NCBI GenBank assembly: GCA_030605085.1
Contig: JAUWBH010000189.1
Coordinates: 1-11,238 of the forward strand
Source: Promethearchaeota archaeon
Lineage (GTDB): Archaea; Asgardarchaeota; Lokiarchaeia; Sigynarchaeales; SOKP01
DNA: 11,238 bases
Reading direction: 5' to 3'
Under the pieces are notes generated by a model. It worked only from the letters and a program-made list of their open reading frames with translations. It was not told where the DNA came from and made no database searches. Of the stretch, positions 1 through 11,238 are shown in pieces (the stretch's first letter is position 1; the number at the start of each line of letters is the position of its first letter). The position numbers and the translations under genes are program-made.

Positions 1-56
1 AGGAAACCTAACATCATTGCAAAAACTATATTTGCATAAGAATCAGTTCACGACGC

Positions 57-403
57 GTATACGTCTTAATCCAGACCAACCATATGTAGAAACAAATGAT
101 GGCGTTGTTTTAACAATGTCATACGATAAATCTACTGATTCTTTTAAAGGGACCGTCTATAATCCAACATTTCAGACTTTGGATGATGTACGGGTTGAGG
201 TGCATTTGTATAAGGATTCTGATTCATATGAACTTGGACCAACTCAAGCTGAAGATCTAGCCGCTTGGGAAAGTAGAGCTGTTGAATTGTCAGCAGAAGG
301 ACGGAGTTTTGATACATGGGTGGCTCATCCAGAAACATCCTCCTCTGAATCAGAAGAAGGAGAACATGAGGAGGGACATGAGGAGGGAGAAGAACACGAT
401 TGA
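57..403 (+). pseudogene. Truncated copy of the acidic-tailed membrane-anchored protein
   Basis: This reading frame matches residues 37 onward of the intact gene at 1930-2385 with no gaps. It keeps the beta-rich domain (motifs SYDKSTDSFKGTVYNP and DVRVEVHLYKD) and the Glu/His tail ending GEEHD. Homology begins at base 57. Upstream sequence is unrelated, so the N-terminal membrane anchor and the promoter are missing. A frame open from TTG at 17 would give about 14 unrelated leading residues, but I see no reason to trust that start. Six of the eight coding differences from the intact copy change the amino acid (P/S, E/G, D/G, E/K, R/W, E/G), as expected if at least one copy is under little constraint. 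I infer a non-functional fragment made by duplication. It could still be expressed as a cytoplasmic protein, which is less likely. Bases 1-39 also read as an open frame ending RKPNIIAKTIFA-stop, possibly the end of an upstream gene, but this is too short to assign. Confidence 0.7.
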
Positions 404-436
404 ATGATAATTACATTAATAATTGATAAAGATTAA

Positions 437-456
437 TTTTTTTTCTTTTCTTATTT
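437..456 (+). terminator. T-rich terminator-like tract after copy 1
   Basis: A run of eight T is followed by CTTTTCTTATTTT about 35 bases past the stop. Archaeal RNA polymerase commonly terminates at such oligo-T tracts without a hairpin. The same tract follows the intact copy. Confidence 0.45.
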
Positions 457-483
457 TATATTAAGTTGAAGATTATTATGATT

Positions 484-729
484 TTAAGCAATTGGCTTTA
501 AGCCGATGTTATTTACGATAGTTACAATGTTGTGAAGCCCCAAATCAATCGCGATAACATTGTTTTTATTCAACAGTAAGGAACGAGGCTCTCTCTCGTA
601 CACGATCTCAACGCTGTATCGAATTCCCATCGGAACGATTCTTATTTGGTTGAACGGTCCTTGATAATTAACTTTTATTGGTTCAACGCTAATATAGAAT
701 ATTAATAAATCTAATATGTCTTTATATTT
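484..729 (-). pseudogene. tnpB: TnpB (IS200/IS605-family OrfB) remnant
   Basis: The minus strand keeps an 81-codon open frame with unmistakable TnpB features: QIRIVPMGIRYSVEIVYE, the strand before the catalytic domain, then NNVIAIDLGLHNIVTIVNN, the RuvC-I segment whose Asp is the first catalytic residue of the RNA-guided nuclease. The reading starts at KYKDILDLLIFY, which fits the PKYKD region of the family, and stops soon after GLKPIA. The rest of the RuvC domain, the zinc ribbon and the N-terminal third are absent; full TnpB proteins are usually about 350-450 residues. No tnpA partner or element ends are visible. The stop codon (484-486) overlaps the edge of the repeat ending at 485, so the element was probably cut off at that junction. 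It is dead as a nuclease. Confidence 0.85.
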
Positions 730-730
730 T
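721..730 (+). promoter_or_regulatory. Candidate TATA box for the nucleotidyltransferase unit
   Basis: TTTATATTTT lies about 52 bases before the ATG at 777. Archaeal TATA boxes sit about 25-27 bases before the start of transcription, which would leave a leader of roughly 25 bases. A closer TATA-like TTATAAA at 764-770 is too near the ATG to serve this gene. In such AT-rich DNA this is only a weak call. Confidence 0.25.
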
Positions 731-776
731 TAAGGAAAATAATTTTAATCAACAAGAGAATTCTTATAAATTAAAT

Positions 777-1016
777 ATGAGAACTGACTTGGATAAGAAA
801 TTTAGGAAAATTTCTAGAGATTTTAAAGGTAAAGTTGAGTTAACAAATAAAACACCAATAGAATATTTAGAGAAAATGTTCGTAGAAATGTATGATTTTA
901 ATTTGCAGTATTACATAGATACTGAAAGAAAACTTCACCCTAAAAAATCTAGAAAAGAGATTCTTATAGAAATGTATAAATTAAAAGAGAGATTAAAAGG
1001 AAGAAAATACAAATGA
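777..1016 (+). CDS. Small basic protein paired with nucleotidyltransferase
   Basis: A 79-residue, soluble, strongly basic and helical protein with no membrane segment. The middle reads NKTPIEYLEKMFVEMYDFNLQYYIDTERKLHPKKS and the C-terminus is Lys/Arg-rich (KLKERLKGRKYK). Its stop overlaps the start of the next gene in an ATGA arrangement (1013-1016), so the two are almost certainly co-transcribed and translationally coupled. I do not recognise the family. A short protein tightly coupled to a minimal nucleotidyltransferase suggests an antitoxin or partner subunit, by analogy with AbiEi/AbiEii and HEPN/MNT pairs, but it shows no HEPN R-x4-6-H motif and no obvious helix-turn-helix. That role is an inference. 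The ATG at 777 is the only good start in the frame. Confidence 0.75.
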   Translation: MRTDLDKKFRKISRDFKGKVELTNKTPIEYLEKMFVEMYDFNLQYYIDTERKLHPKKSRKEILIEMYKLKERLKGRKYK

Positions 1017-1642
1017 AGGACGTTCTACCCAATGCTTTAAAGCAAATAATAAAATTCCTAGAAGATTGTGAGCAAGAATTAGGAATACAATATTATTTAG
1101 TGGGAGGAATACTAGTAAATATCTACGCAACAATTAGAGCTACTCAAGATATAGATTTTGTTGTTGACATCCAATCTAAGAACATAAGTATTGAAGACTT
1201 TGTTGCTCTCTTAGAAAAGAATGATTTTCAACCATTTCAAGATTGGAGATCTTCAATATTATTAGCTAGGGATACTAAATTATTACAGTATTTTGATAAA
1301 GAGGAAATTGTAAAATTTGATAATTATATTATAGACAAATTTGACAGAAGCAAGTATAAGCGAATTGGTCCTATAGCACTTAAGAGAAGAGTAAGAGAAA
1401 AATTATTTGGTGTTGAATGTTGGGTTGCATCCAAAGAAGATTTTATTTTAAGTAAATTAGTGTTTGGAGGATGGCAAGATTATACGGACTCGCTTGGCTG
1501 CTGGATGCGATTTAAAGAAATTTTGGATGTAAATTATTTAGACAAAACCAGTAAGGAATTAGGAATATTAAGAGAATTGAGTTTATTGAAATCCGGAATA
1601 GAAGATCCTGACGAATATTTTGAAGAAATAAATGATTATTAA
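1013..1642 (+). CDS. AbiEii/MNT-like nucleotidyltransferase
   Basis: This 209-residue protein has the signature of the DNA polymerase-beta nucleotidyltransferase fold: a glycine pair in YYLVGGILVNIYA (about residues 27-39) followed by RATQDIDFVVDI (about 42-53), where the DID supplies two metal-binding Asp residues. A third acidic residue may come from VKFDNYIID near residue 105. The later ASKEDFILSKLVFGG segment (about 142-156) is typical of the AbiEii/MNT-like group, whose members transfer nucleotides to protein or RNA targets and often act as toxins or antitoxins. An AGGA at 998-1001 lies 11 bases before the ATG, which overlaps the preceding stop. The length suits the family. The target and direction of action (toxin or antitoxin) cannot be read from the sequence. 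The unit lies inside a rearranged region, which suits a mobile defence or addiction module. Confidence 0.85.
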   Translation: MKDVLPNALKQIIKFLEDCEQELGIQYYLVGGILVNIYATIRATQDIDFVVDIQSKNISIEDFVALLEKNDFQPFQDWRSSILLARDTKLLQYFDKEEIVKFDNYIIDKFDRSKYKRIGPIALKRRVREKLFGVECWVASKEDFILSKLVFGGWQDYTDSLGCWMRFKEILDVNYLDKTSKELGILRELSLLKSGIEDPDEYFEEINDY

Positions 1643-1648
1643 AATAGG

Positions 1649-1855
1649 GTGGTACAAATTCGAGACCCGAAAAGAATTCCAAAAGTATTAGAAAAGATTG
1701 AGAGATTATGGTCAAAATTCCCTGATCTTCGATTAGGACAACTCATACTTAATGTGTTCAGCCTTCACAATGGCATATATGTAGCAGTTTACAACATGGA
1801 AGATGAAGAATTCGTGAATAGAATAGAAGAGTTCTACGTAGGACGATTTGATTAA
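1649..1855 (+). CDS. Small RDPKRI...PDLRLGQLI protein (DUF1040-like)
   Basis: A 68-residue soluble protein begins at GTG, six bases after the nucleotidyltransferase stop, so it is probably the third gene of that unit. The pattern RDPKRIPKVLEKIERLW, then FPDLRLGQLILNV, then an acidic YNMEDEEFVNRIEEFY is one I associate with short bacterial and archaeal proteins, sometimes labelled DUF1040, of unknown function. The match is from memory of the pattern and has not been checked. The GTG start is supported because family members begin almost directly at the RDPKRI segment, and no ATG occurs in frame between the preceding stop and that motif. No catalytic motif is visible. It could be an independent hitchhiker rather than part of the toxin-antitoxin-like pair. 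Confidence 0.75.
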   Translation: MVQIRDPKRIPKVLEKIERLWSKFPDLRLGQLILNVFSLHNGIYVAVYNMEDEEFVNRIEEFYVGRFD

Positions 1856-1870
1856 AACATTTGACTCGTA

Positions 1871-1905
1871 TTTAAAATTTTATTTTAAAAAGTATTCCTT
1901 GGAAT
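1871..1905 (+). promoter_or_regulatory. Candidate promoter with a small palindrome
   Basis: TTTAAAATTTTATTTTAAAA from 1871 includes a TATA-like core about 55 bases before the ATG at 1930. It is followed by the palindrome ATTCC-TT-GGAAT (1894-1905) near the expected transcription start, a position that would suit an operator. Both are short patterns in AT-rich sequence. Confidence 0.25.
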
Positions 1906-1929
1906 TTCTATAAAAAAAATGAAGATGAT

Positions 1930-2385
1930 ATGAATAAAAAAAATAAAATAATAATGTTGAGTGCTTTTTTAATCATAATAGTTTTATTTGGAATAGCACT
2001 TATCGTATTCTATAATACAAATGATGAGGAGGAGTCAGGTATACGTCTTAATCCAGACCAATCATATGTAGGAACAAATGATGGCGTTGTTTTAACAATG
2101 TCATACGATAAATCTACTGATTCTTTTAAAGGGACCGTCTATAATCCAACATTTCAGACTTTGGATGGTGTGCGGGTTGAGGTGCATTTGTATAAGGATT
2201 CTGATTCATATGAACTTGGACCAACACAAGCTAAAGATCTAGCCGCTTGGGAAAGTAGAGCTGTTGAATTGTCAGCAGAAGGATGGAGTTTTGATACATG
2301 GGTGGCTCATCCAGAAACATCCTCCTCTGAATCAGAAGAAGGAGAACATGAGGAGGGACATGAGGAGGGAGGAGAACACGATTGA
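1930..2385 (+). CDS. Membrane-anchored protein with acidic, His-rich tail
   Basis: This 151-residue protein starts with MNKKNKI and a hydrophobic stretch at about residues 8-28 (LSAFLIIIVLFGIALIVFY), an uncleaved signal anchor with basic residues on the inside. The exported part, about residues 40-120, is beta-rich: VVLTMSYDKSTDSFKGTVYNP, then VRVEVHLYKDSDSYELGPT, then LAAWESRAVELSAEGWSFDTWVAHPE. It resembles small FxLYD-like or fibronectin-like sandwich domains in which GTVYNPTFQTLDGVRVEVHL is the core hairpin. The last 25 residues are almost all Ser, Glu, His and Gly (SEEGEHEEGHEEGGEHD), a likely metal-binding tail. I infer a cell-surface protein that may bind divalent metal. ATG 1930 is preferred because an ATG at 1919 runs into a stop after four codons. 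A truncated copy lies at 57-403. Confidence 0.85.
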   Translation: MNKKNKIIMLSAFLIIIVLFGIALIVFYNTNDEEESGIRLNPDQSYVGTNDGVVLTMSYDKSTDSFKGTVYNPTFQTLDGVRVEVHLYKDSDSYELGPTQAKDLAAWESRAVELSAEGWSFDTWVAHPETSSSESEEGEHEEGHEEGGEHD

Positions 2386-2467
2386 ATGATAATTACATTA
2401 ATAATTGATAAAGATTAATTTTTTTTCTTTTCTTATTTTATATTAAGTTGATGATTATTATGATTTT
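2039..2467 (+). repeat. 429-bp dispersed direct repeat, copy 2
   Basis: This is the partner of 57-485. It covers codons 37 to the stop of the membrane-anchored protein gene plus 82 bases of 3' flank, ending inside the first codons of the candidate gene at 2451. Here the reading frame continues upstream into a proper membrane anchor, so this is probably the parental copy. Confidence 0.92.
2419..2438 (+). terminator. T-rich terminator-like tract
   Basis: Eight T, then CTTTTCTTATTTT, about 33 bases past the stop of the membrane-anchored protein. This fits intrinsic archaeal termination on oligo-T. No hairpin precedes it. Confidence 0.5.
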
Positions 2468-2754
2468 GGATTCGGATATAGAATCGGCGGGTATGGTAGC
2501 GGAATCATTTTTATACTTAATTGTAGCGATAATTACATTATTACTTCTTTTTTTTTTCTAATGATATAATTAATTACAATTCTAATTCTAAATTAAATAC
2601 ATTAAAAAAGATTCATGAAAAGAATGACATACGCTGGAACTTCAAAAAAGATTTGAAAAAAGACCTTATTAATAAAAAATTAATTAGAAAAAATTTAAAT
2701 GAATTTTTTAAATTTCCAATTAAAAGTAAAAAAAGACAAAGAACATTATTTTAA
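2451..2754 (+). pseudogene. Candidate small membrane protein split at a T10 run
   Basis: Two abutting frames look like halves of one gene. The first (2451-2561) gives MIIMILDSDIESAGMVAES and then one hydrophobic helix (FLYLIVAIITLLLLFFF). It stops just after ten consecutive T at 2548-2557. The second frame, one base over, continues SNDIINYNSNSKLNTLKK through a basic stretch and ends KSKKRQRTLF-stop at 2754. With nine T instead of ten the whole would be a 100-residue single-pass protein with an acidic outside and a basic inside, a sensible topology. This may be a real frameshift, a sequencing error in the homopolymer, or slippage during transcription. I do not recognise a family. AT-rich DNA gives chance open frames, so confidence is low. 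The rest of the stretch from 2386 holds only the terminator-like tract and AT-rich sequence. Confidence 0.35.
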
Positions 2755-2805
2755 GATTATAATACTTTAAATCAAAAATCTTTAGAAAATGTAAAAATAT
2801 GTTAT

Positions 2806-4254
2806 CTAATACGAAAATCCTTTAAGTTTCTGTACTGTTGTAAAAATATTTTTCCCACCTTTTCTAAGAAAGTCCATTGCGTCTTCGATCCCTTCAACTG
2901 TTAAATTATACATGGGAATTACACTGGAAATAATCTTTCTCGTCCACGGCTGCCATTCCTCTCTTATAAGTTCAGGGTTTAACCAAACGATACCGTTTTT
3001 AAAATGTTCTGCGATCTCTCTTATATAATAAATTCCAGGCATCTCGTTCCTATGATAATAGTATATTGACCCGTATTTTTCTGTGAGCTCCCAACTTGCC
3101 TACACCGCTTAAGGGGGATTCCCTTAAACTATAGCGGCATCGCCCACAAGAACTACTTTATATTTGTTATTGAACTTTTTCAAGAATTCCTCAAATGGGA
3201 TTGCTTCATCTGGATTGCGTTGGGCGTTAAAGAACAGTTTCTCGTAAACGCAATTATGGAAGTAATAAAATTTAAAATCTTTCCAATGCGACATGTTGTT
3301 AGCAGCGGAAAATAGGATGTTCACAAGATGAGCGTATGGCGTCATCGAACCCCCGACATCCATCAAGAGTATCAATTTCACGTCGTTTTTCCGTCGTTTA
3401 TCGAATATTATTTCAATATCACCAGCATTTCTGGCCGTTTCGTCAATAGTTTTATCAAGGTCCAGCTCGTCTCGTTTACCGATCTCTTCTAATTTTCGCA
3501 AGCGTTTTAAAGCAACTTTAATTTGTCTCGTGTCTAAAACAATGTCTTTTCTATAATCTTTGAAAATTCTTTTCTGGGCAATTTGAACCGCCATGCGCAT
3601 CCCCGCACTTCCTCCAACTTGCATGCCCATGGGATTTTCTCCAGCATTTCCGAATTGCGACTGACCTTGAGTACCGATCCAGTGATCTCCGAAATTATGT
3701 TCACCGTCTTGTCTTTGCAATAGCTCTTCGAAGCGCTTTTGTAAATCTTCGAGGTTAAGAAACTGGCTCATCATTTCTTGAAAGGCTACATTTCCTTCTA
3801 ATTTATCGAGGTTTTTTTGTAACCATTCCCATATTTCGTCCTTTATCTCACCTGGAGCGTTTATTAACATCATTTCCCCTGATTTTACTTTTTCCAATAA
3901 CTCTTCAAGAAACTGTTGTAAATCTTCGACATTTATGTATTGTCTATATTCGCTTAACAATATTTGTAGCCCTGTAATTAACTCTTGAAAAGTAATATCT
4001 TTTTGTAGCCAATCCCATATCTCTTGTTTTACTTCTTCTGGAAATTTAAGCGACGCTTCCTTAAAGAAATTCGCAAAAGATATGTCAAAAATGTCAAAAT
4101 GATGCTCGTTCTTGCAAAGGATACTTCGGGAGATGTAATAGAACTCTACCATGTTGTGAATAAGTCCTTTGTCCAAGGCTTGGAGTAGAGTCATATATTC
4201 GGTAATACTAACAGGCAATCGTTCCTTAAGATAATAAAAAAACTCTACAAACAT
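2806..4254 (-). CDS. CoxE-like VWA protein, interrupted by a BHB intron
   Basis: Read as bases 4254-3131 joined to 3100-2806, this gives a 472-residue VWA-domain protein of the CoxE type, which works with a MoxR ATPase in assembling or activating metal-containing enzymes or complexes. The N-terminal helical region (1-180) is followed by the family segment HNFGDHWIGTQG (about 187-198) and the conserved DYRKDIVLDTRQIKVALKRLR. The VWA domain begins at LILLMDVGGSMTPY (about 294-307), whose DxGxS is a variant metal-ion-dependent adhesion site (MIDAS). Later motifs are FYYFHNCVY and VLVGDAAMASWELTEKYG. Unspliced DNA has three in-frame stops right after VGDAA, cutting off the C-terminal 98 residues. 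After splicing, GDAAMASWEL aligns without gaps to GDQCMYRSEL of the neighbour. AGGA at 4260-4263 sits 5 bases before the ATG. A 60-residue helical insert (about 110-170) is absent from the paralogue. The alternative is a recent pseudogene made by a palindromic insertion. Confidence 0.88.
3101..3130 (-). other. 30-nt BHB intron in the second VWA gene
   Basis: On the minus strand the exon end reads UGC-CGCU-AU and the intron starts A-GUUUAAGGG, loop AAUCC, CCCUUAAGC-GGUG-UA, then exon 2 begins G-GCA. Outer helix: UGC/GCA, 3 bp. Central helix: CGCU/GGUG, 4 bp including two G-U pairs. Inner helix: GUUUAAGGG/CCCUUAAGC, 9 bp. The two three-base bulges on opposite strands are AUA and UAG. Cutting after the second base of each bulge, as archaeal tRNA-splicing endonuclease does, removes 30 nt. 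The split codon becomes AUG (phase 2, Met375), restoring GDAAM. Retained, the insert adds in-frame TAA, TAA and TAG stops. The structure and the restored motif are seen directly; splicing itself is inferred. Confidence 0.82.
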
Positions 4255-4307
4255 ACTAATCCTAAAATTGTAATATCTTTTAACATTTTAATTTTTAATT
4301 GTTTTTT

Positions 4308-5546
4308 TTAATAAAGTGCCAATGGCACTCCTTTAAGCATCTCAACAGTCGTAAATATATTTTTTCCTTTTGTTTTTAAGTAGTCCATAGCCTTTTCAAT
4401 ACCCTCAATCGTTAACGGGAAAGTTGGGATAACTTTTGAAATAACTAATTGCGTCCATGTCAACCAATTATATAGGTCGTTTACAGGACTCAACCAAATC
4501 ACTCCGTTCTTAAAATGACGGGCAATTCTTTTTATATAATAAATTCCGGGTTTTTTATTGGTTACACCATCGTAAATAGCTCCGTAAGGCCTTTTTAATT
4601 CGCTGCGGTACATACATTGGTCACCTACAACTACCACGCGATATGAACTATTGTATTTTCTTAAAAAATCGTTAAATTCAATTGCTTCCTCTTGATTTCG
4701 ACTAGCTTTTTCGTATAAATAATTGTAAATGCAATTATGAAAATAATAATGCTTAAAATCTTTCCAGTGCGACATACTATATGCTGCAGAAAATAAGAGA
4801 TTAACTCGATGAGTATAGGGGTCCATTGTACCGCCAACATCCATTATAAGCAGAAGTTTTACGTTGTTTTTTCTCTTTTTTTCGAAGATTAGTTCGATTT
4901 CACCAGAATTTCTGGCTGTATTATCAATCGTTTTTTTAAGATTTAACTCGTTTTTCTTACCAATCTCGTCTAATTTTCGAAGCCGCTTTAGAGCTACTTT
5001 AATTTGTCTAGTGTCGAGGACGATATCCTTTCTGTAATCTTTGAATATCCTTTTTTGAGCAATTCTTATCGCCTTACGCATGCCGAAAGCGTCGCCAAAC
5101 TTTATACCCGCAGAATTTAAACCAGAATGACCGAATTGCGACCACCCTTGAGTTCCAATCCATTTATTCCCGAAATTGTGCTCGCTATCTTGTTCTTTCA
5201 ATAATTGTGCTAATTGTCTTTCTAACGATTCCAAATCAACATCTTCAAACAATTCTTTAATTTCTGGTAAAAAATGTAATAAACTTATATCTTTTTGCAG
5301 CCACTTCCAGATTTCCTGTTTTATATCCACTGGAAATTTAATTGAAACCTCCTCGAAAAAATTTGCGAAACACCAATCGAATATGTCAATGTGATGCTCG
5401 TTCTTACATAAAATACTTCGTGATATGTAGTAGAACTCTACCATGTTGTGTATAAGTCCTTTATTTAAAGCTTGCAATAAGGTTAAGTACTCTGTAATAG
5501 ATACAGGTAATCGCTTCTTTAAAAAATAAAAAAAATTTATGAACAT
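4308..5546 (-). CDS. CoxE-like VWA domain protein, intact paralogue
   Basis: A 412-residue uninterrupted protein with the same layout as the downstream gene. It begins MFINFFYFLKKRLPVSITEY, has a short helical linker with EIWKWLQKDI (about 78-87), then HNFGNKWIGTQG (123-134) and YRKDIVLDTRQIKVALKRLRKL. The VWA domain starts at LLLIMDVGGTMDPY (231-244), with a DxGxT in place of the classic DxSxS, then HYYFHNCIY, VVVVGDQCMYRSEL (304-317) and a C-terminal KKPGIYYIKRIARHFKNG. Proteins of this family pair with MoxR ATPases and are thought to act as adaptor subunits that bring the ATPase to its target. It starts 30 bases after the ATPase stop, with AGGA at 5553-5556 six bases before the ATG, and is followed 53 bases later by its paralogue. 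Two different VWA partners for one ATPase suggest either a mixed complex or two targets. No cox or other substrate genes are visible to say which enzyme is served. Confidence 0.92.
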   Translation of the reverse strand: MFINFFYFLKKRLPVSITEYLTLLQALNKGLIHNMVEFYYISRSILCKNEHHIDIFDWCFANFFEEVSIKFPVDIKQEIWKWLQKDISLLHFLPEIKELFEDVDLESLERQLAQLLKEQDSEHNFGNKWIGTQGWSQFGHSGLNSAGIKFGDAFGMRKAIRIAQKRIFKDYRKDIVLDTRQIKVALKRLRKLDEIGKKNELNLKKTIDNTARNSGEIELIFEKKRKNNVKLLLIMDVGGTMDPYTHRVNLLFSAAYSMSHWKDFKHYYFHNCIYNYLYEKASRNQEEAIEFNDFLRKYNSSYRVVVVGDQCMYRSELKRPYGAIYDGVTNKKPGIYYIKRIARHFKNGVIWLSPVNDLYNWLTWTQLVISKVIPTFPLTIEGIEKAMDYLKTKGKNIFTTVEMLKGVPLALY

Positions 5547-5576
5547 TTAAATTCCTAAAATTAATGTCTTAACATT

Positions 5577-6462
5577 TTAAGTAGGGAATTTTACTTTTTC
5601 TAATACTGTTTCTAAATCCTTTTCTTTCTTAATTAAAACTCCTAAAAATGGGATTTTATGCTTTAGCTCCTCCAAAGTTAAGCCGCTTTTTAATAATACA
5701 CCGATCCAATCGAGCAGTTCTGAAGTTGATGGCATTTTTCTGAGTTTAGTAATAGCTCTAAGGGCGTAAAAATGCTTAAGGCATTGATCAAGAAGATTCT
5801 GCTTCAAATCTGGATAGTGTAAATTACATATTTCCGCCATAAACTCTTTAGAAGGGAATTCAATCCAGTGAAACACGCACCTTCGTAAAAATGCGTCAGG
5901 AAGTTCTTTTTCGTTATTAGAAGTGATGATTACTATAGGTCTTATTTTTGTTTTTATGAACTCTTTAGTCTCCTTAATGTAAAATTCCATAAAATCTAAT
6001 TCTTGAAGCAAGTCATTGGGGAATTCGATGTCTGCTTTATCGACTTCGTCGACCAAGAGCACTACTTGTTCATCGGATTCGAATGCCTCGCCTAAAGGTC
6101 CATACATAATGTAATCCTTTATATTGTTCACATCCCGATCTTCGCTCCCAAATCGGCTATCGTTTAATCTCTGGACCGTATCGTACATATAGCAACCATC
6201 TATGGCCTCTGTGGTGCTTTTTATGTTCCATACGATTAATCTTTTTCCAAGCGTTTCGGCAATTGCGTGCGCTAGAAGCGTTTTTCCCGCTCTGGTAAAT
6301 TTTAATAATTTAAAATTTATTTCCAGGTTCTCCTTTCACCAATAATGGTCTTTCTAGCGCAATTGCTATATTTACGATATTTCGTAGCTGAGGATCAGCT
6401 ATATATCGTATTCTCTCCGTGTTCACATTGCCTTTAAACTGATTAAAGCTTGCATTACTCAT
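5577..6462 (-). CDS. MoxR-type AAA+ ATPase, interrupted by a BHB intron
   Basis: Read as bases 6462-6321 joined to 6289-5577, this encodes a 284-residue MoxR/CoxD-like AAA+ ATPase. Such proteins form hexameric rings that, with VWA partners, remodel or activate metalloenzymes. Spliced motifs are: Walker A GEPGTGKT (44-51); WNIKSTTEAIDG (68-79), typical of the CoxE-linked subfamily; Walker B VVLLVDEVDKADIEFPNDLL with Asp128/Glu129; and sensor 1 with arginines in IVIITSNNEKELPDAFLRRC (about 166-185). Length and start fit the family. Without splicing the frame ends at GEPGNKF-stop (49 residues). A second frame opens only at a Met (6188) beyond Walker A, so unspliced products could not bind ATP. 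This is the first gene of the operon, with the two VWA genes close behind. Its ATG has no Shine-Dalgarno and lies about 28 bases from a TATA box. The alternative is a pseudogene, but every other part is intact and conserved. Confidence 0.88.
6290..6320 (-). other. 31-nt BHB intron inside the Walker A codons
   Basis: On the minus strand exon 1 ends C-CUGG-AA; the intron starts A-UAAAUUUUAA, loop AUUA, UUAAAAUUUA-CCAG-AG; exon 2 begins C-GGG. Central helix: CUGG/CCAG, 4 perfect pairs. Inner helix: 10 perfect A-U pairs. Bulges: AAA and AGC, three bases each, on opposite strands. The outer helix is weak (one C-G pair), so this is a relaxed BHB motif. Cutting after the second base of each bulge removes 31 nt, restores the frame, and rebuilds the split codon as ACG (Thr48, phase 1), giving the canonical GEPGTGKT. 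The sequence has no similarity to the other intron. The geometry is seen directly; splicing is inferred. Confidence 0.82.
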
Positions 6463-6482
6463 AATTAAATAGAATTATCAAC

Positions 6483-6497
6483 AAATTATATATTTTT
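6483..6497 (-). promoter_or_regulatory. TATA box of the MoxR-VWA operon
   Basis: Minus-strand AAAAAATATATAAT is centred about 28 bases before the ATG at 6462, preceded by an A-rich stretch that could serve as the B recognition element. With normal archaeal spacing, transcription would begin at or next to the ATG, giving a leaderless mRNA. This agrees with the lack of a Shine-Dalgarno there. Confidence 0.55.
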
Positions 6498-6713
6498 TGA
6501 CAATTTTAGTTCAAAAAAATCATTATAACGAATGAAAATAAGATTAATATTTAAAAATTTCAACCTACGAAAAGTGAAATATAGTTGAAATTCAAAACAA
6601 TTAGAAATTAAAGCGTTAATAAGAACCTTATAGATAATAAGGCGTGTTAAAAAGAAATGTAATTAAAATATAAAAAAAATCTAATATTAAATAAATAAAT
6701 CAAAATGTAATCT

Positions 6714-6771
6714 AAAAAAAGAATGAATATGCAACTGATAATAAAAATTATCAGTTAAAAAATTATTCATT
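6714..6771 (-). terminator. Hairpin plus T-run terminator of the large gene
   Basis: A perfect 10-bp inverted repeat AACTGATAAT (6733-6742) / ATTATCAGTT (6747-6756) with a four-base loop is nested within AATGAATA (6722-6729) / TATTCATT (6764-6771). On the minus strand the stem is followed at once by seven T (6720-6714). It begins 8 bases past the stop of the 1291-codon gene, the right place for an intrinsic terminator that separates it from the MoxR operon. The rest of the gap (6463-6713) is AT-rich with only the MoxR promoter. Confidence 0.75.
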
Positions 6772-6778
6772 GCACATT

Positions 6779-9700
6779 TTACTCGTATAATTTTTTATAA
6801 ACCAAATCAAAACCAGTATGAATTTTTCTAGAATATTTGTTAAGAAAGTTAATTATAGGTTTTAATTCGTTAGAAACATCTTGATATACACTTGACATCA
6901 TAGCTTCTCCAAATGTTTTTTTATTGTGCGTGTCAAATGGCAATTTAAATCCTAATAATTGAGTTCTATTTTTTGCCCAAACGGCATTTTTACCAAAAAT
7001 TTTACTAAGGTTATTATGTGTGATAGTGGAAGGAATTTTAATGGGAAGTTTTATTATATTTCCATATGTTTTATGGTTGACTATTTTGGTGAGTAATACA
7101 TCATTTAAAATTGAATTTTTAGAGATGGCAGAATTCATATTAAGCCTTAAAAGATCGCTTATTCTGGTTGATGCTTTAATAAGAGATTTAATATAATTGT
7201 GATTATACTTACTTTTTAAGATTAAATTCATTTTGATATCTCTTGGTACGTCATATTCCTCGGTGTTCAATAAAGCCATTATTCTAATTCGATTAATAGA
7301 TTCAAATTCGAACTTATCAAAACCATGCTTTTCGCTTTCACTTCTAAGTGTGTCTTTCAAATTGTTTGACACCTGCTCAATTATTGTATCTCTTGGCGTT
7401 ATTTTTTGTGGTCTATATGTAAATACTTTTTTTAGAATATGTAGGTCGTACTGCAAAATATTTTCCAAATTATTGATATCTTCGATTATTGCGTCAATTC
7501 TCTTTTTCGGTACTTTTTTCAAATTAAACTTTCTTGAAGGATGGTCCTTCCTAGGATGTCTACCATCTTGAAAAAATGATCTTTCTCCAGGATAAACGGT
7601 TTCGTGTATACCATATAATATATTTATCGCTTCATGATTAAATATTTTCAATTCAAAAGGTTGTTTAGGCTTAGTACTGCGATAACCACGTATATAGTTT
7701 ACGGTTGAGTCATAAAATTTTTCTAATTGTAGTTTTAAATCATCTCGTTTCCTCGAATTACTAAATTTTTTCTCGATATAATCAAGAAACTCGTCTACAA
7801 TTTCAGGAGCGTTAAAAGATCTAATGAATTCTTCAGCTGAGGAAAAGTTTTTCTCCACAGAATAATCTGCTAAATAATTCATTAAAAAATCTAAGTTTAA
7901 ATGCCTAAACTTACTTTTATTATATTCAATACTTTCAAATACTTTTTTAAGCGTTGTTAATCCATTTTGTAATTGTAATTGACGAGTCACCTTTTTATAT
8001 TGCTTATTAAACAATTTCCCTGCTTTGACAATATTACCTAACTTTTTCTTATCTAATCTTTCGATATCTTGAATTATAAATTTACCAAAATAATCTTCGT
8101 AGATGTGAGCGTAAGTTTCTACAAGAGCATCCATCAGTAAATCACGAGATTTATGTTTTTTTTCTATATTTGATTCTTTAATTAATGGTTCTGAATGTGT
8201 AACTGTTTTTATCATTCCTTTAACGTGTGCATATCCGTCTAATTTTAAAAACTCATTTTCTAATTTGTCAAGAGTTTTTAGTATTTTTTCCAGTTCAGTA
8301 TATTTAACTATTCCTTTGATTCCACTTTCAAAATCTTTCAATTTTTGATCGTCCTTGATTAATTCTCTTGCATCAGTTATTTTATTAAGTAATTGATTTA
8401 ATTTTTCTGTTTCCTTATCGTCAACTAAATTTGTAATACTATTCAATAATCCAATGATGTTTTCTTTATCAAGGCTAAGTTTGTTTGCGATTATTGTCTT
8501 AGAATCTCTAATTAATTTATTAAATTCTCTTCTTCCAAAAAATTGTTCAGAAGATTTTTCTATTTTTTCAAGTTCTTGCACAATTTTATATATCTCAGTT
8601 TTACTAGAATAAGTTTTAACGAGGTCCTCTCTCTTTTTTGTATGTGGCTCGGTATTTCTTAATATCGTTTCTTTAATGAAATATTTAAGATTCTTTGTCT
8701 TCTCATCGTATTTTCCTTCTGTATTAATAAAATGTTCCCAATAACCTAGAAAATCTTCAATTGAGGTTTTTTGGGGGTTTACACCTAAATTTTCAATTAA
8801 ATCATCAATTTTATTTATCCAAGATTCGAACAATTCGCTTGAATTTTGAAGCTCTTGTGCAACTTTATCGCGCGTTAAGCCAAAACTATCAAGAATTTGA
8901 ACGAATGATTCTTTATTTTCTTCTGAAAGCTTTAAATTATCAATAGCTTTATAAATATCTTTGTTTAATCCTGTTTCATTGATCAATTCCGAGCAAAACT
9001 TAAGGCTATAGGAATCAAGTGCAACAATGGGATTTTTTTTATTAATAAGAAAGGGATTTTTTATGTAATTATCGTATAGATAGTTTTGAAGAAAGCTTTT
9101 TAAGAGACTAATAGAATAATGTTTGGTCAATGTATTAGGTTCAACTTTCCTAATTGTTTTTTCAAGTATAGCTGCGAAACTAAAATCTTGGACTTTATTA
9201 AAAATAGATTTGATATAACTTATCGTTTCGCTAATAATGAATTTCTTAATATCATCGTCATATACTATAACGTGTTTAAATTTCCTATATGAGTTAAAAA
9301 TTTCATCGTAAAGAGAGTTAATTACTTTTGTAACAATATTTTTTCTTAGAGTCCTAATAGTATTTTTTACTTCACCTTTAAAATCTTGAGATACTTTATC
9401 TTCAGTAGTAATCCCTTTATCATATGGAACCTCTTCTTGATTAATTTCGCTATAAATATTGTATAACTTTTCAATCTCTTTGGTTCCTTTATATTGTGCA
9501 ATATCATCTATTAATGACAACAATGTTTCTAAAACATTTTTTAGATATGAAACAATTTGGTTAGCTTTAATTATATTCTTTTTTAGTAAATAATCTTTAA
9601 TTTCTAATTCGTTGAAATCTAATCTATTTTGTATTTCTTTAAGTGAATTTAATTCATTTTTGTCTGAGTATTCTTCTTGAATTTTAACAATAAAATCGTC

Positions 9701-10654
9701 TAGTTCATTAGGTTTAGGCAAAATTTTCTGTAATTTTACTATTTTCTGTGTTCCTTCATCAGATAAAGAATCTTTTAGTTGTATTTGCAGATCGTTCAAT
9801 GAAGTGTACCATTCTTCCAACGATAACATGAGCGCTCTTTTTTTCTCAAAGTAGCTTTCCTGCTTATCCAAGTAACTATTATATAGTTCTCTTAATTGAG
9901 AAAATGTATTTTTTCTTCCATAAATCTTATTTTCTCGAAAAAAATCAAGTTTCTTTTCTGCTTCTAAGAATTCATTTATTTCGTTGTTAATTATTTTTCT
10001 AACTTCCTTTACTCTTTTAACATACTCTTCTTGCATACAACTATAAGTCAAGGGAATTTTTGATAAAAATTCACCAATAATTTTTGAGTCCTTTTTGAGT
10101 ATTCGACTAAGTTTTTGATTAATCAAGCGATTTAATTTATCACTTTTTTTCTCTATTAATCTACCCTTTTTAGAGAAATTGAAATTGTTTAGAACTTTAC
10201 TTATGATATCGATATTGATTAAAGGGTCGATTGTTCGTACTTTTGATAATTCTCCAAGCATAAATCTATAGACGATCTCATCGTTAATATTACGTAAAAA
10301 TCTTAACAAGTTGTTATATTCTTGATTATCCATTTCAGGTCCTGAGACTTGTAGCATTGAGGTAATTACTGGAATGGCGTTCTGATTTTGCTTACATGTA
10401 CTGATTTCATTACCCCATGTAGTATATAAAGTTAGACGCTTTGATCCCCCTTTTAAATCTTCCCAATTGTATTTACTTACCTCATCCGATTTAACCATCT
10501 CCTTACTTAATTGTTGACTTGCGGTAATAAAACCCGCAGTAATATCTAAATCGGTTAAACTGCTTCCTCTACTACCGCACTTCCCAATAGCAGTTCCACT
10601 CTCCGAGTTTACATTAAGATACAATATGTTTCTGATGTCAGATTCTTGTATCAT
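6779..10654 (-). CDS. Giant helical protein, possible longin-like N-terminus
   Basis: A 1291-residue soluble protein rich in Lys, Glu, Ile, Asn and Leu, with no membrane segment or signal peptide. I do not recognise a named family. The first about 135 residues differ in style from the rest: Gly/Ser/Thr-rich, with DLDITAGFITASQQLSKEM (about 35-53) and GGSKRLTLYTTWGNE (about 69-83). This spacing recalls the longin/roadblock domains common in Asgard archaea, but the match is only suggestive. About residues 150-1000 are long charged helices with repeated hydrophobic spacing, likely coiled coil (for example KKLDFFRENKIYGRKN and EKLNQLLNKITDARELI). The end is more mixed, with a basic patch HPRKDHPSRKFNLKKVPKKR (about 1055-1074) and a conserved-looking C-terminus. 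A GGAG at 10663-10666 lies 8 bases before the ATG. It is a single-gene unit with its own terminator. Scaffold, tether or cytoskeleton-like roles are possible, but nothing here decides. Confidence 0.9.
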   Translation of the reverse strand: MIQESDIRNILYLNVNSESGTAIGKCGSRGSSLTDLDITAGFITASQQLSKEMVKSDEVSKYNWEDLKGGSKRLTLYTTWGNEISTCKQNQNAIPVITSMLQVSGPEMDNQEYNNLLRFLRNINDEIVYRFMLGELSKVRTIDPLINIDIISKVLNNFNFSKKGRLIEKKSDKLNRLINQKLSRILKKDSKIIGEFLSKIPLTYSCMQEEYVKRVKEVRKIINNEINEFLEAEKKLDFFRENKIYGRKNTFSQLRELYNSYLDKQESYFEKKRALMLSLEEWYTSLNDLQIQLKDSLSDEGTQKIVKLQKILPKPNELDDFIVKIQEEYSDKNELNSLKEIQNRLDFNELEIKDYLLKKNIIKANQIVSYLKNVLETLLSLIDDIAQYKGTKEIEKLYNIYSEINQEEVPYDKGITTEDKVSQDFKGEVKNTIRTLRKNIVTKVINSLYDEIFNSYRKFKHVIVYDDDIKKFIISETISYIKSIFNKVQDFSFAAILEKTIRKVEPNTLTKHYSISLLKSFLQNYLYDNYIKNPFLINKKNPIVALDSYSLKFCSELINETGLNKDIYKAIDNLKLSEENKESFVQILDSFGLTRDKVAQELQNSSELFESWINKIDDLIENLGVNPQKTSIEDFLGYWEHFINTEGKYDEKTKNLKYFIKETILRNTEPHTKKREDLVKTYSSKTEIYKIVQELEKIEKSSEQFFGRREFNKLIRDSKTIIANKLSLDKENIIGLLNSITNLVDDKETEKLNQLLNKITDARELIKDDQKLKDFESGIKGIVKYTELEKILKTLDKLENEFLKLDGYAHVKGMIKTVTHSEPLIKESNIEKKHKSRDLLMDALVETYAHIYEDYFGKFIIQDIERLDKKKLGNIVKAGKLFNKQYKKVTRQLQLQNGLTTLKKVFESIEYNKSKFRHLNLDFLMNYLADYSVEKNFSSAEEFIRSFNAPEIVDEFLDYIEKKFSNSRKRDDLKLQLEKFYDSTVNYIRGYRSTKPKQPFELKIFNHEAINILYGIHETVYPGERSFFQDGRHPRKDHPSRKFNLKKVPKKRIDAIIEDINNLENILQYDLHILKKVFTYRPQKITPRDTIIEQVSNNLKDTLRSESEKHGFDKFEFESINRIRIMALLNTEEYDVPRDIKMNLILKSKYNHNYIKSLIKASTRISDLLRLNMNSAISKNSILNDVLLTKIVNHKTYGNIIKLPIKIPSTITHNNLSKIFGKNAVWAKNRTQLLGFKLPFDTHNKKTFGEAMMSSVYQDVSNELKPIINFLNKYSRKIHTGFDLVYKKLYE

Positions 10655-10680
10655 TGATTAATCTCCATCTAAAGACTTTT

Positions 10681-10690
10681 AATATAAATT
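10681..10690 (-). promoter_or_regulatory. Candidate TATA box of the large gene
   Basis: Minus-strand AATTTATATT is centred about 32 bases before the ATG at 10654, giving a very short predicted leader that would barely include the GGAG ribosome site at 10663-10666. The fit is imperfect. The rest of 10655-10995 is AT-rich with no coding frame that I can support. Confidence 0.35.
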
Positions 10691-10952
10691 ATTTTGTTCA
10701 GTTAATCAAACCAATTAATTTTTTTTCCGTTTTTGAAGCAAATCTGCTTATAACAAATTATTTTAATTAAATAATTTTAAAATTAAAAAATTTTTGAAGT
10801 AATTAATTAATTCTTTACAAAAACAAAAAAATTAACATATTTAAAAAAATCCTAATAGTTTCTTATATCAAATATGATTTTTTTAAAATCTTGTTGAATG
10901 TGTGTGGCTAAATATAAACTCTCAGTTAAATCATTAGTCTAATAACAAATCT

Positions 10953-10973
10953 AAAAAAAAATCAAAAAAAAAA
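10953..10973 (-). terminator. Double oligo-T terminator after thiolase
   Basis: On the minus strand, about 22 bases past the thiolase stop, come ten T, then GAT, then nine T. Repeated T runs without a hairpin are typical archaeal terminators. Confidence 0.55.
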
Positions 10974-10995
10974 TTGAAAATTTTTATAATTGCTT

Positions 10996-11238
10996 TTAAT
11001 CTCTTTGTCCTAATATACTTACGCTACAAATGCTAAACGCTCCCCCAAGGTTATGACCTAAGTCAATCTTAGCGTCTGGTACTTGCCTCCCCTCTGCACG
11101 ACCTTGAATTTGTTTAATAACTTCTGTTAACATCCTACATCCTGTCGAACCAATTGGATGTCCGAACGATTTAAGGCCTCCAGAAGGATTAACAGCGGTC
11201 TCTCCATCCCAATTAAATGTACCGTTCTTTAATTCTTC
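10996..11238 (-). CDS. Thiolase (acetyl-CoA acetyltransferase family), C-terminal part
   Basis: Only the last 80 codons are in the window; the gene runs off the right edge. They show the thiolase signature NPSGGLKSFGHPIGSTG with the catalytic His in GHPIG, then the helix RMLTEVIKQIQGRAEGRQV and the end LGHNLGGAFSICSVSILGQRD. HNLGG followed by Cys is the pattern of archaeal and SCP-x-type thiolases rather than the CIGGGQG of bacterial PhaA/AtoB. Thiolases join two acyl-CoA units, or split beta-ketoacyl-CoA. In many archaea they begin the mevalonate pathway in a complex with HMG-CoA synthase and a DUF35 protein, but neither partner is visible here, so beta-oxidation is equally possible. The stop is TAA at 10996-10998. 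Confidence 0.93.
   Translation of the reverse strand, partial: EELKNGTFNWDGETAVNPSGGLKSFGHPIGSTGCRMLTEVIKQIQGRAEGRQVPDAKIDLGHNLGGAFSICSVSILGQRD

Follow-up and report, generated by a model that had tools for sequence, protein, structure and literature searches.

A gene for a MoxR-type AAA ATPase (moxR) in a contig of a Promethearchaeota archaeon of the class Lokiarchaeia (GenBank assembly GCA_030605085.1, contig JAUWBH010000189.1, positions 1 to 11,238; this whole stretch of 11,238 nucleotides is referred to as the window) is interrupted by a 31-nt insert within its Walker A codons. The insert is very probably an intron of the tRNA type in the lokiarchaeal moxR messenger RNA (mRNA), with a bulge-helix-bulge (BHB) motif, and is predicted to be excised by EndA, the exons likely being joined by RtcB. 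By homology alone, 51 inserts of 28-37 nt were placed in 40 interrupted genes. They occupy nine sites in four genes, namely three in moxR, one in a vWA gene, one in an HMG-CoA-synthase-like gene and four in the gene of ribosomal protein uL11. At least one of these introns is found in 34 of 83 Lokiarchaeia genomes and in the window. The sequences point to something real and unusual, namely a population of mRNA introns of the tRNA type in Lokiarchaeia, which are archaeal relatives of eukaryotes.

The moxR gene is located on the minus strand (5577..6462) with the exons 6462-6321 and 6289-5577, and the spliced protein matches the Pfam families AAA (2.5e-11) and AAA_5 (3e-09). Read on the minus strand from 6320 to 6290, the insert is ATAAATTTTAAATTATTAAAATTTACCAGAG. 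It lies between GEPG and GKT, and the reading frame shifts across its 31 nt. Once it is removed, a single frame of 284 amino acids runs from 6462 to 5577 and contains the motif GEPGTGKT, with the Thr codon split A|CG. The predicted intron (6290..6320) ranked first among 12 BHB candidates. Its fold consists of the central helix CUGG/CCAG, flanked by the bulges AAA and AGC, and of an inner helix of 10 bp without mismatch, UAAAUUUUAA/UUAAAAUUUA. On the 5' exon side (6321..6326, minus strand), the quartet CTGG (6326-6323) is followed by the first two bulge bases, AA (6322-6321). The intron ends (6290..6295, minus strand) with the quartet CCAG (6295-6292) and the first two bases of the other bulge, AG (6291-6290), whose third base, C, belongs to exon 2 (6289, minus strand). 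The archaeal splicing endonuclease cleaves each 3-nt bulge behind its second base. A sequence-only reading of the window had proposed the insert at 6290..6320 between GEPG and GKT, the fold, and cuts after the second bulge bases that yield GEPGTGKT in the correct frame. The position proved exact, each element of the fold was recovered with the qualification that an outer helix is absent, and the cuts hold as geometry.

When named genomes were scanned with the spliced MoxR protein, 42 loci were retrieved, with best-segment identities of 79-89%; the titles of all 42 read Lokiarchaeota or Lokiarchaeia. The Walker A site is uninterrupted in 38 of these 42 relatives, which supplies the homologues lacking the 31 nt that the sequence-only reading had named as a check; L036 and L041 carry an insert, and the contigs L034 and L035 begin past the site. 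Determined from homology with structure unused, the insert length at this site was exactly 31 nt in 38 of 38 high-scoring segment pairs, and then in 55 of 55 in a wider search. In all 47 uninterrupted frames that match G.PGXGK, the position X is occupied by T, which is the residue restored by the split codon. The interpretation as a BHB intron, also put forward in the sequence-only reading, gains support from the diverged 31-nt BHB inserts at the same site in L036 and L041, from further moxR sites, from the neighbouring vWA gene and from two unrelated genes with inserts of like size and build. That reading was right about the moxR intron and overlooked the vWA intron at 3130-3101; it also treated as a single case what is one of a family of mRNA introns.

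The second predicted BHB intron of the window, 30 nt in length (3101..3130, minus strand), interrupts a vWA (CoxE-like) gene (2806..4254, minus strand) with the exons 4254-3131 and 3100-2806, the first of which matches PF05762 (VWA_CoxE). The insert keeps the frame but introduces three stop codons if it is not spliced. Without it the gene reads DAAMASWEL, the Met codon being split AT|G, and AMA is present in 27 of 27 uninterrupted frames of relatives. The central helix is CGCU/GGUG with two G-U pairs, and three outer pairs can form, as judged by reading the sequence. The same site is interrupted in G041 (29 nt), G072 (33 nt) and G052 (30 nt). Exon and intron sides of the quartets change together between species (CGCU/GGUG, UGCU/GGUA and CGCA/UGUG), while UGCG/CACA has one mismatch.

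Two homology searches were performed around the window. The first was a tblastn search with 479 open reading frames (ORFs) against 455 kb made up of the window and 48 loci, with structure unused. Split inserts were found solely in moxR (L036, 31 nt; L039, 32 nt; L041, 31 and 31 nt; window, 31 nt) and in vWA (L042, 29 nt). The extended search took in 18 additional regions and part of G001, and also admitted inserts that keep the frame but contain stops. It added a third L041 intron (30 nt), L099 (30 nt), L100 (31 nt), the vWA intron of the window (30 nt) and inserts of 30 nt in a gene of L008, L011 and L015. Reading of its sequence suggests that this gene is HMG-CoA-synthase-like; Pfam recognized just a C-terminal OB-fold. 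The moxR inserts fall on three sites: Walker A (site A; window, L036, L041), RL|NDSRF (site B; L041, L099) and AD|IEF (site C; L041, L039, L100), the two sites other than A being interrupted in four genomes. The contigs L034 and L035 begin at moxR residues 53 and 55, and L040 and L116 end at residue 138, near sites A and C. These contig ends may mark places where the assembly broke because some strains have the intron and others lack it.

Most inserts were found in uL11 (36, compared with 8 in moxR, 4 in vWA and 3 in the HMG-CoA-synthase-like gene). A 28-nt insert in the uL11 gene of G004 (C1 near 1129380) emerged from a comparison of 1.16 Mb of G001, 1.2 Mb of G004 and other loci, amounting to 3.1 Mb and 3489 ORFs. 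In a class-wide search, uL11 was matched in 74 of the 83 Lokiarchaeia genomes. Among 51 loci, composed of 30 best matches and 21 picked for a broken-looking match, splice-aware protein-to-DNA alignment blind to structure identified 27 interrupted ones with 36 introns in total, distributed over four sites (residues 16/17, 24, 28 and 33/34). The spliced proteins are continuous through the conserved N-terminus. In all 27 interrupted genomes, no second, intact copy is present among the matches listed in the class-wide search, and the gene of G043 (L293) is interrupted three times. A phylum-wide search (227 genomes, 210 matched; G114, with two matches, left out) contained no broken uL11 outside Lokiarchaeia among the matches listed.

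The other three genes are interrupted in fewer of the 83 genomes. moxR was matched in 64 and interrupted in 5, with six more at contig ends or split between contigs. vWA was matched in 66 and interrupted at the site in 3, a count that excludes weak fragments with stops in G003, G015, G017 and G046. The HMG-CoA-synthase-like gene was matched in 58 and interrupted in 3, excluding distant homologues with stops in G007, G009 and G010. The distribution is patchy at close range: the L036 intron is absent from its nearest relatives L031, L032 and L038, and therefore reflects a recent gain or recent losses. On a uL11 tree, at least 10, 6, 2 and 11 changes are required for sites 1-4, counted on one short, poorly resolving protein with L290 lacking the first 16 residues and with no shuffle comparison. 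A moxR tree served solely for the placement of true carriers and not for counting changes, as nine divergent rows (L102, L103, L107, L109-L114) bear spurious labels where the splice aligner gapped dissimilar ends; in the class-wide search these nine are uninterrupted frames. Introns may be gained and lost at a few strongly conserved codons, which would account for the patchy presence between close species. Uninterrupted frames show no variation in the residues that the split codons encode, with N in 35 of 35 in addition to the T and AMA counts given above.

The intron structures were scored at cuts that remove exactly the length defined by homology and so restore the frame (d=0), the best of 13 joint cut shifts being taken. 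The score concerns a helix of 4 nt in which the 5' exon pairs with the 3'-terminal part of the intron; the test was designed after the result of a blind energy ranking was known. A helix score of at least 3.2 (of 4) was reached by 33 of 38 non-redundant introns, compared with 1-14 of 38 in 18 other registers and with a mean of 8.5 and a maximum of 17 of 38 for shuffled introns (2000 rounds). For seven non-redundant introns the junction is fixed to the base by homology. In 7 of 7 the helix peaks exactly two bases from each cut (shifts -3 to +3), which is the geometry of 3-nt bulges cut after the second base; in the L042 intron, three of the four helix pairs form at this position. The 14 intron sequences at uL11 site 4 have 93.5% of cells paired, and 5 of 12 pairs are changed on both sides; none of 500 shuffles attained their covariation score.

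Several results weigh against the intron interpretation or narrow its support. An outer exon-exon helix, as in a strict BHB, is missing in the window moxR, where a single C-G pair is possible outside the bulges, and the motif is therefore of the relaxed type. The central helix is weak in 5 of the 38 non-redundant introns (the synthase-like intron, L041 site C and three at uL11 site 2). In a blind ranking by energy, the homology-defined insert came top in 14 of 51 cases, and for 12 there was no nearby candidate of the right length, in part because of inner mismatches and stronger neighbouring hairpins in uL11. The number of further pair types at uL11 site 4 is not in excess of shuffles (368 of 500 as high). 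A permissive scan of the 455 kb for BHB motifs combined with frame gave 190 passes versus 174-200 with shifted cuts. Stricter scans gave 8 passes versus 2-6 for unequal cut shifts (inner helix 7) and 5 versus 1 (inner helix 8), so that controls were not clearly exceeded; equal shifts of both cuts gave 8-9 and 5 passes, respectively, and are no control because the frame stays intact. In 398 kb of G001, an ab initio scan gave 12 passes versus 9-17 in controls. Such scans are weak alone in AT-rich DNA, and homology was therefore used for the search. EndA and RtcB are known here from the genomes of relatives rather than from that of the window, and splicing itself is something we infer from DNA sequence. 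Finally, the thermosome, a long gene picked regardless of introns, contained no stop or intron among the matches listed for 82 matching genomes; the introns therefore prefer certain genes, or few genes carry them. Two shortened thermosome rows (G004 and G046) stop at runs of 100 N (L297 1313-1412 and L298 998-1097). These runs look like scaffold gaps, which implies that the chromosome-level records are not gapless.

In the proposed mechanism, the transcript would fold into the BHB, EndA would cut after the second base of each bulge, RtcB would join the exons, and MoxR and uL11 would be made from the spliced RNA. The EndA family (PF01974) is present in 6 of 6 relatives searched, with two copies in 5 of 6. 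RtcB (PF01139) was found in 11 of 12 intron-bearing relatives searched, G033 having no PF01139 match. One of the two EndA paralogues of G001 (L165 and L164) matches 3p1z (4.9e-40), which we take to be the EndA of A. pernix. The same copy aligns with Y, H and K of 3p1z, presumably the catalytic columns, and with a loop lysine; the second copy lacks the His. By our own count, the aligned lysine would correspond to K44 of EndA. In PMC6379350, K44 is assigned to a Crenarchaea-specific loop, and two-subunit EndA enzymes are stated to cut relaxed BHBs, one two-subunit enzyme of narrow specificity being named. The paralogue pair of G001 is predicted to form a two-subunit enzyme. In 1.2 Mb of G004, ARAGORN predicted nine tRNA genes with an intron when lengths of 10-120 nt were allowed.

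In one alternative, the insert would be retained in the RNA and ribosomes would hop over the hairpin, as reported for the byps elements of some yeast mitochondria and for phage T4 gene 60. The inserts resemble such elements as short hairpins in conserved genes whose length is not always a multiple of three. Hopping is nevertheless disfavoured because the inserts break up codons for invariant residues: in the unspliced RNA neither the Thr nor the Met has a contiguous codon, and the conserved protein is not readable from it. Immediately before exon 2, the in-frame triplet is GCG (moxR) or the stop TAG (vWA), as against the T and AMA of uninterrupted frames, and an exon-intron helix in the EndA register would not be expected of hopping. 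Hopping is thus regarded as very improbable. To about the same small degree, cleavage of the BHB by EndA could serve regulation or decay rather than splicing, the message being destroyed or used as two pieces. The Haloferax splicing endonuclease cuts one additional mRNA, according to PMC7714728; the exons at the tested junctions, however, restore one conserved frame and residue, which cleavage alone does not need.

A further alternative holds that a palindrome was inserted into genes that are now decaying. Most relatives have an uninterrupted moxR, and the unspliced frames contain stops or shifts. Against decay, moxR and vWA of the window have no stop or frameshift beyond the inserts, and the aligner saw no break besides the inserts in the interrupted moxR genes, which answers the sequence-only reading's call to look for other disabling mutations. 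For the interrupted moxR of L036, dN is well below dS (dN/dS 0.09 and 0.11 versus L031 and L032); dS was incalculable for pairs with the window (dN 0.07-0.09), and the L041-L100 pair was out of register. Because of these ratios and of uL11, whose interrupted copy is the sole one among the matches listed in 27 genomes, decaying genes are hardly a plausible explanation. An assembly or sequencing artefact, a worry raised in the sequence-only reading and conceivable in that the named records are metagenome assemblies, is the least credible of all, since assemblies with separate titles have inserts at the identical base, and these inserts differ in sequence and show compensatory changes.

Beyond the excision of single introns, a more general proposal appears evenly balanced. 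Lokiarchaeia may maintain a multi-intron mRNA splicing economy through tRNA-splicing enzymes, in which genomes contain several mobile BHB introns of about 30 nt, and single genes as many as three, with repeated insertion at those codons of core genes that are most strongly conserved; these would be the first intron-rich protein-coding genes known among eukaryote-related archaea.

On the minus strand of the window, the order of genes is moxR (6462-5577), an uninterrupted vWA paralogue (5546-4308) and the split vWA gene (4254-2806). The paralogue (4308..5546) encodes 412 amino acids, has DQCMYRSEL at the equivalent site and matches PF05762 below the cut-off. Upstream of moxR, an ORF of 1291 amino acids without a Pfam match is encoded on the same strand (6779-10654). 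Two near-identical ORF stretches about 2 kb apart on the plus strand (2-403 and 2041-2385) look like a recent duplication. Rfam, including group I, group II and other intron models, gave no family at gathering score in the window. Some inserts from the 3.1-Mb comparison were rejected. A 100-nt insert at G1C5 was judged false, as its upstream match resembles a tRNA gene and coincides with a tRNA prediction by ARAGORN; those at G1C10 490520 and G4 337487 were unconvincing, and other single-reference rows were dropped without individual judgement.

In the literature found, confirmed archaeal mRNA splicing by the tRNA-splicing enzyme is confined to one crenarchaeal gene, while its signature occurs here in four genes, including that of a ribosomal protein, across an Asgard class. 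This bears on the origin and spread of introns before eukaryotes. Plain gene calling fragments the affected proteins, moxR and vWA of the window each being called as pieces, and the nine mapped sites make intron gain and loss testable between close species. A literature search, whose coverage excluded bioRxiv and most subscription journals, returned no account of introns in lokiarchaeal mRNAs.

Among known systems, the byps elements of yeast mitochondria are alike as short hairpins that break conserved coding regions; they are bypassed in translation, whereas the split codons found here argue against bypass. BHB introns of archaeal rRNA genes are often longer and contain homing endonucleases, in contrast to the 28-37 nt of the lokiarchaeal mRNA introns. 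Both share strongly conserved sites and a patchy presence, and the rRNA introns are mentioned in PMC2738675. The BHB introns of archaeal tRNA genes are alike in fold, cut rule and probable enzyme, but are found in RNA genes with no frame to restore, whereas those described here are in mRNA. Among Asgard archaea, intron-rich tRNA genes are described for Atabeyarchaeia and Freyarchaeia in PMC11291895. The comparable mRNA intron is that of cbf5. It is reportedly linked to hetero-oligomeric EndA, judging by the title of Yoshinari 2006. PMC2738675 describes it as a pre-mRNA BHB intron of 21-39 bp in Sulfolobales and Desulfurococcales with lineage-specific losses and, as of 2009, as the sole confirmed case, with introns predicted in other archaeal protein genes and putative introns of 12 bp mentioned for an archaeal virus. 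The introns reported here are in moxR, vWA, the HMG-CoA-synthase-like gene and uL11, cbf5 of Lokiarchaeia being outside the search. Whereas the cbf5 intron concerns one gene of Crenarchaeota, those of Lokiarchaeia concern four genes and nine sites, with up to three introns per gene.
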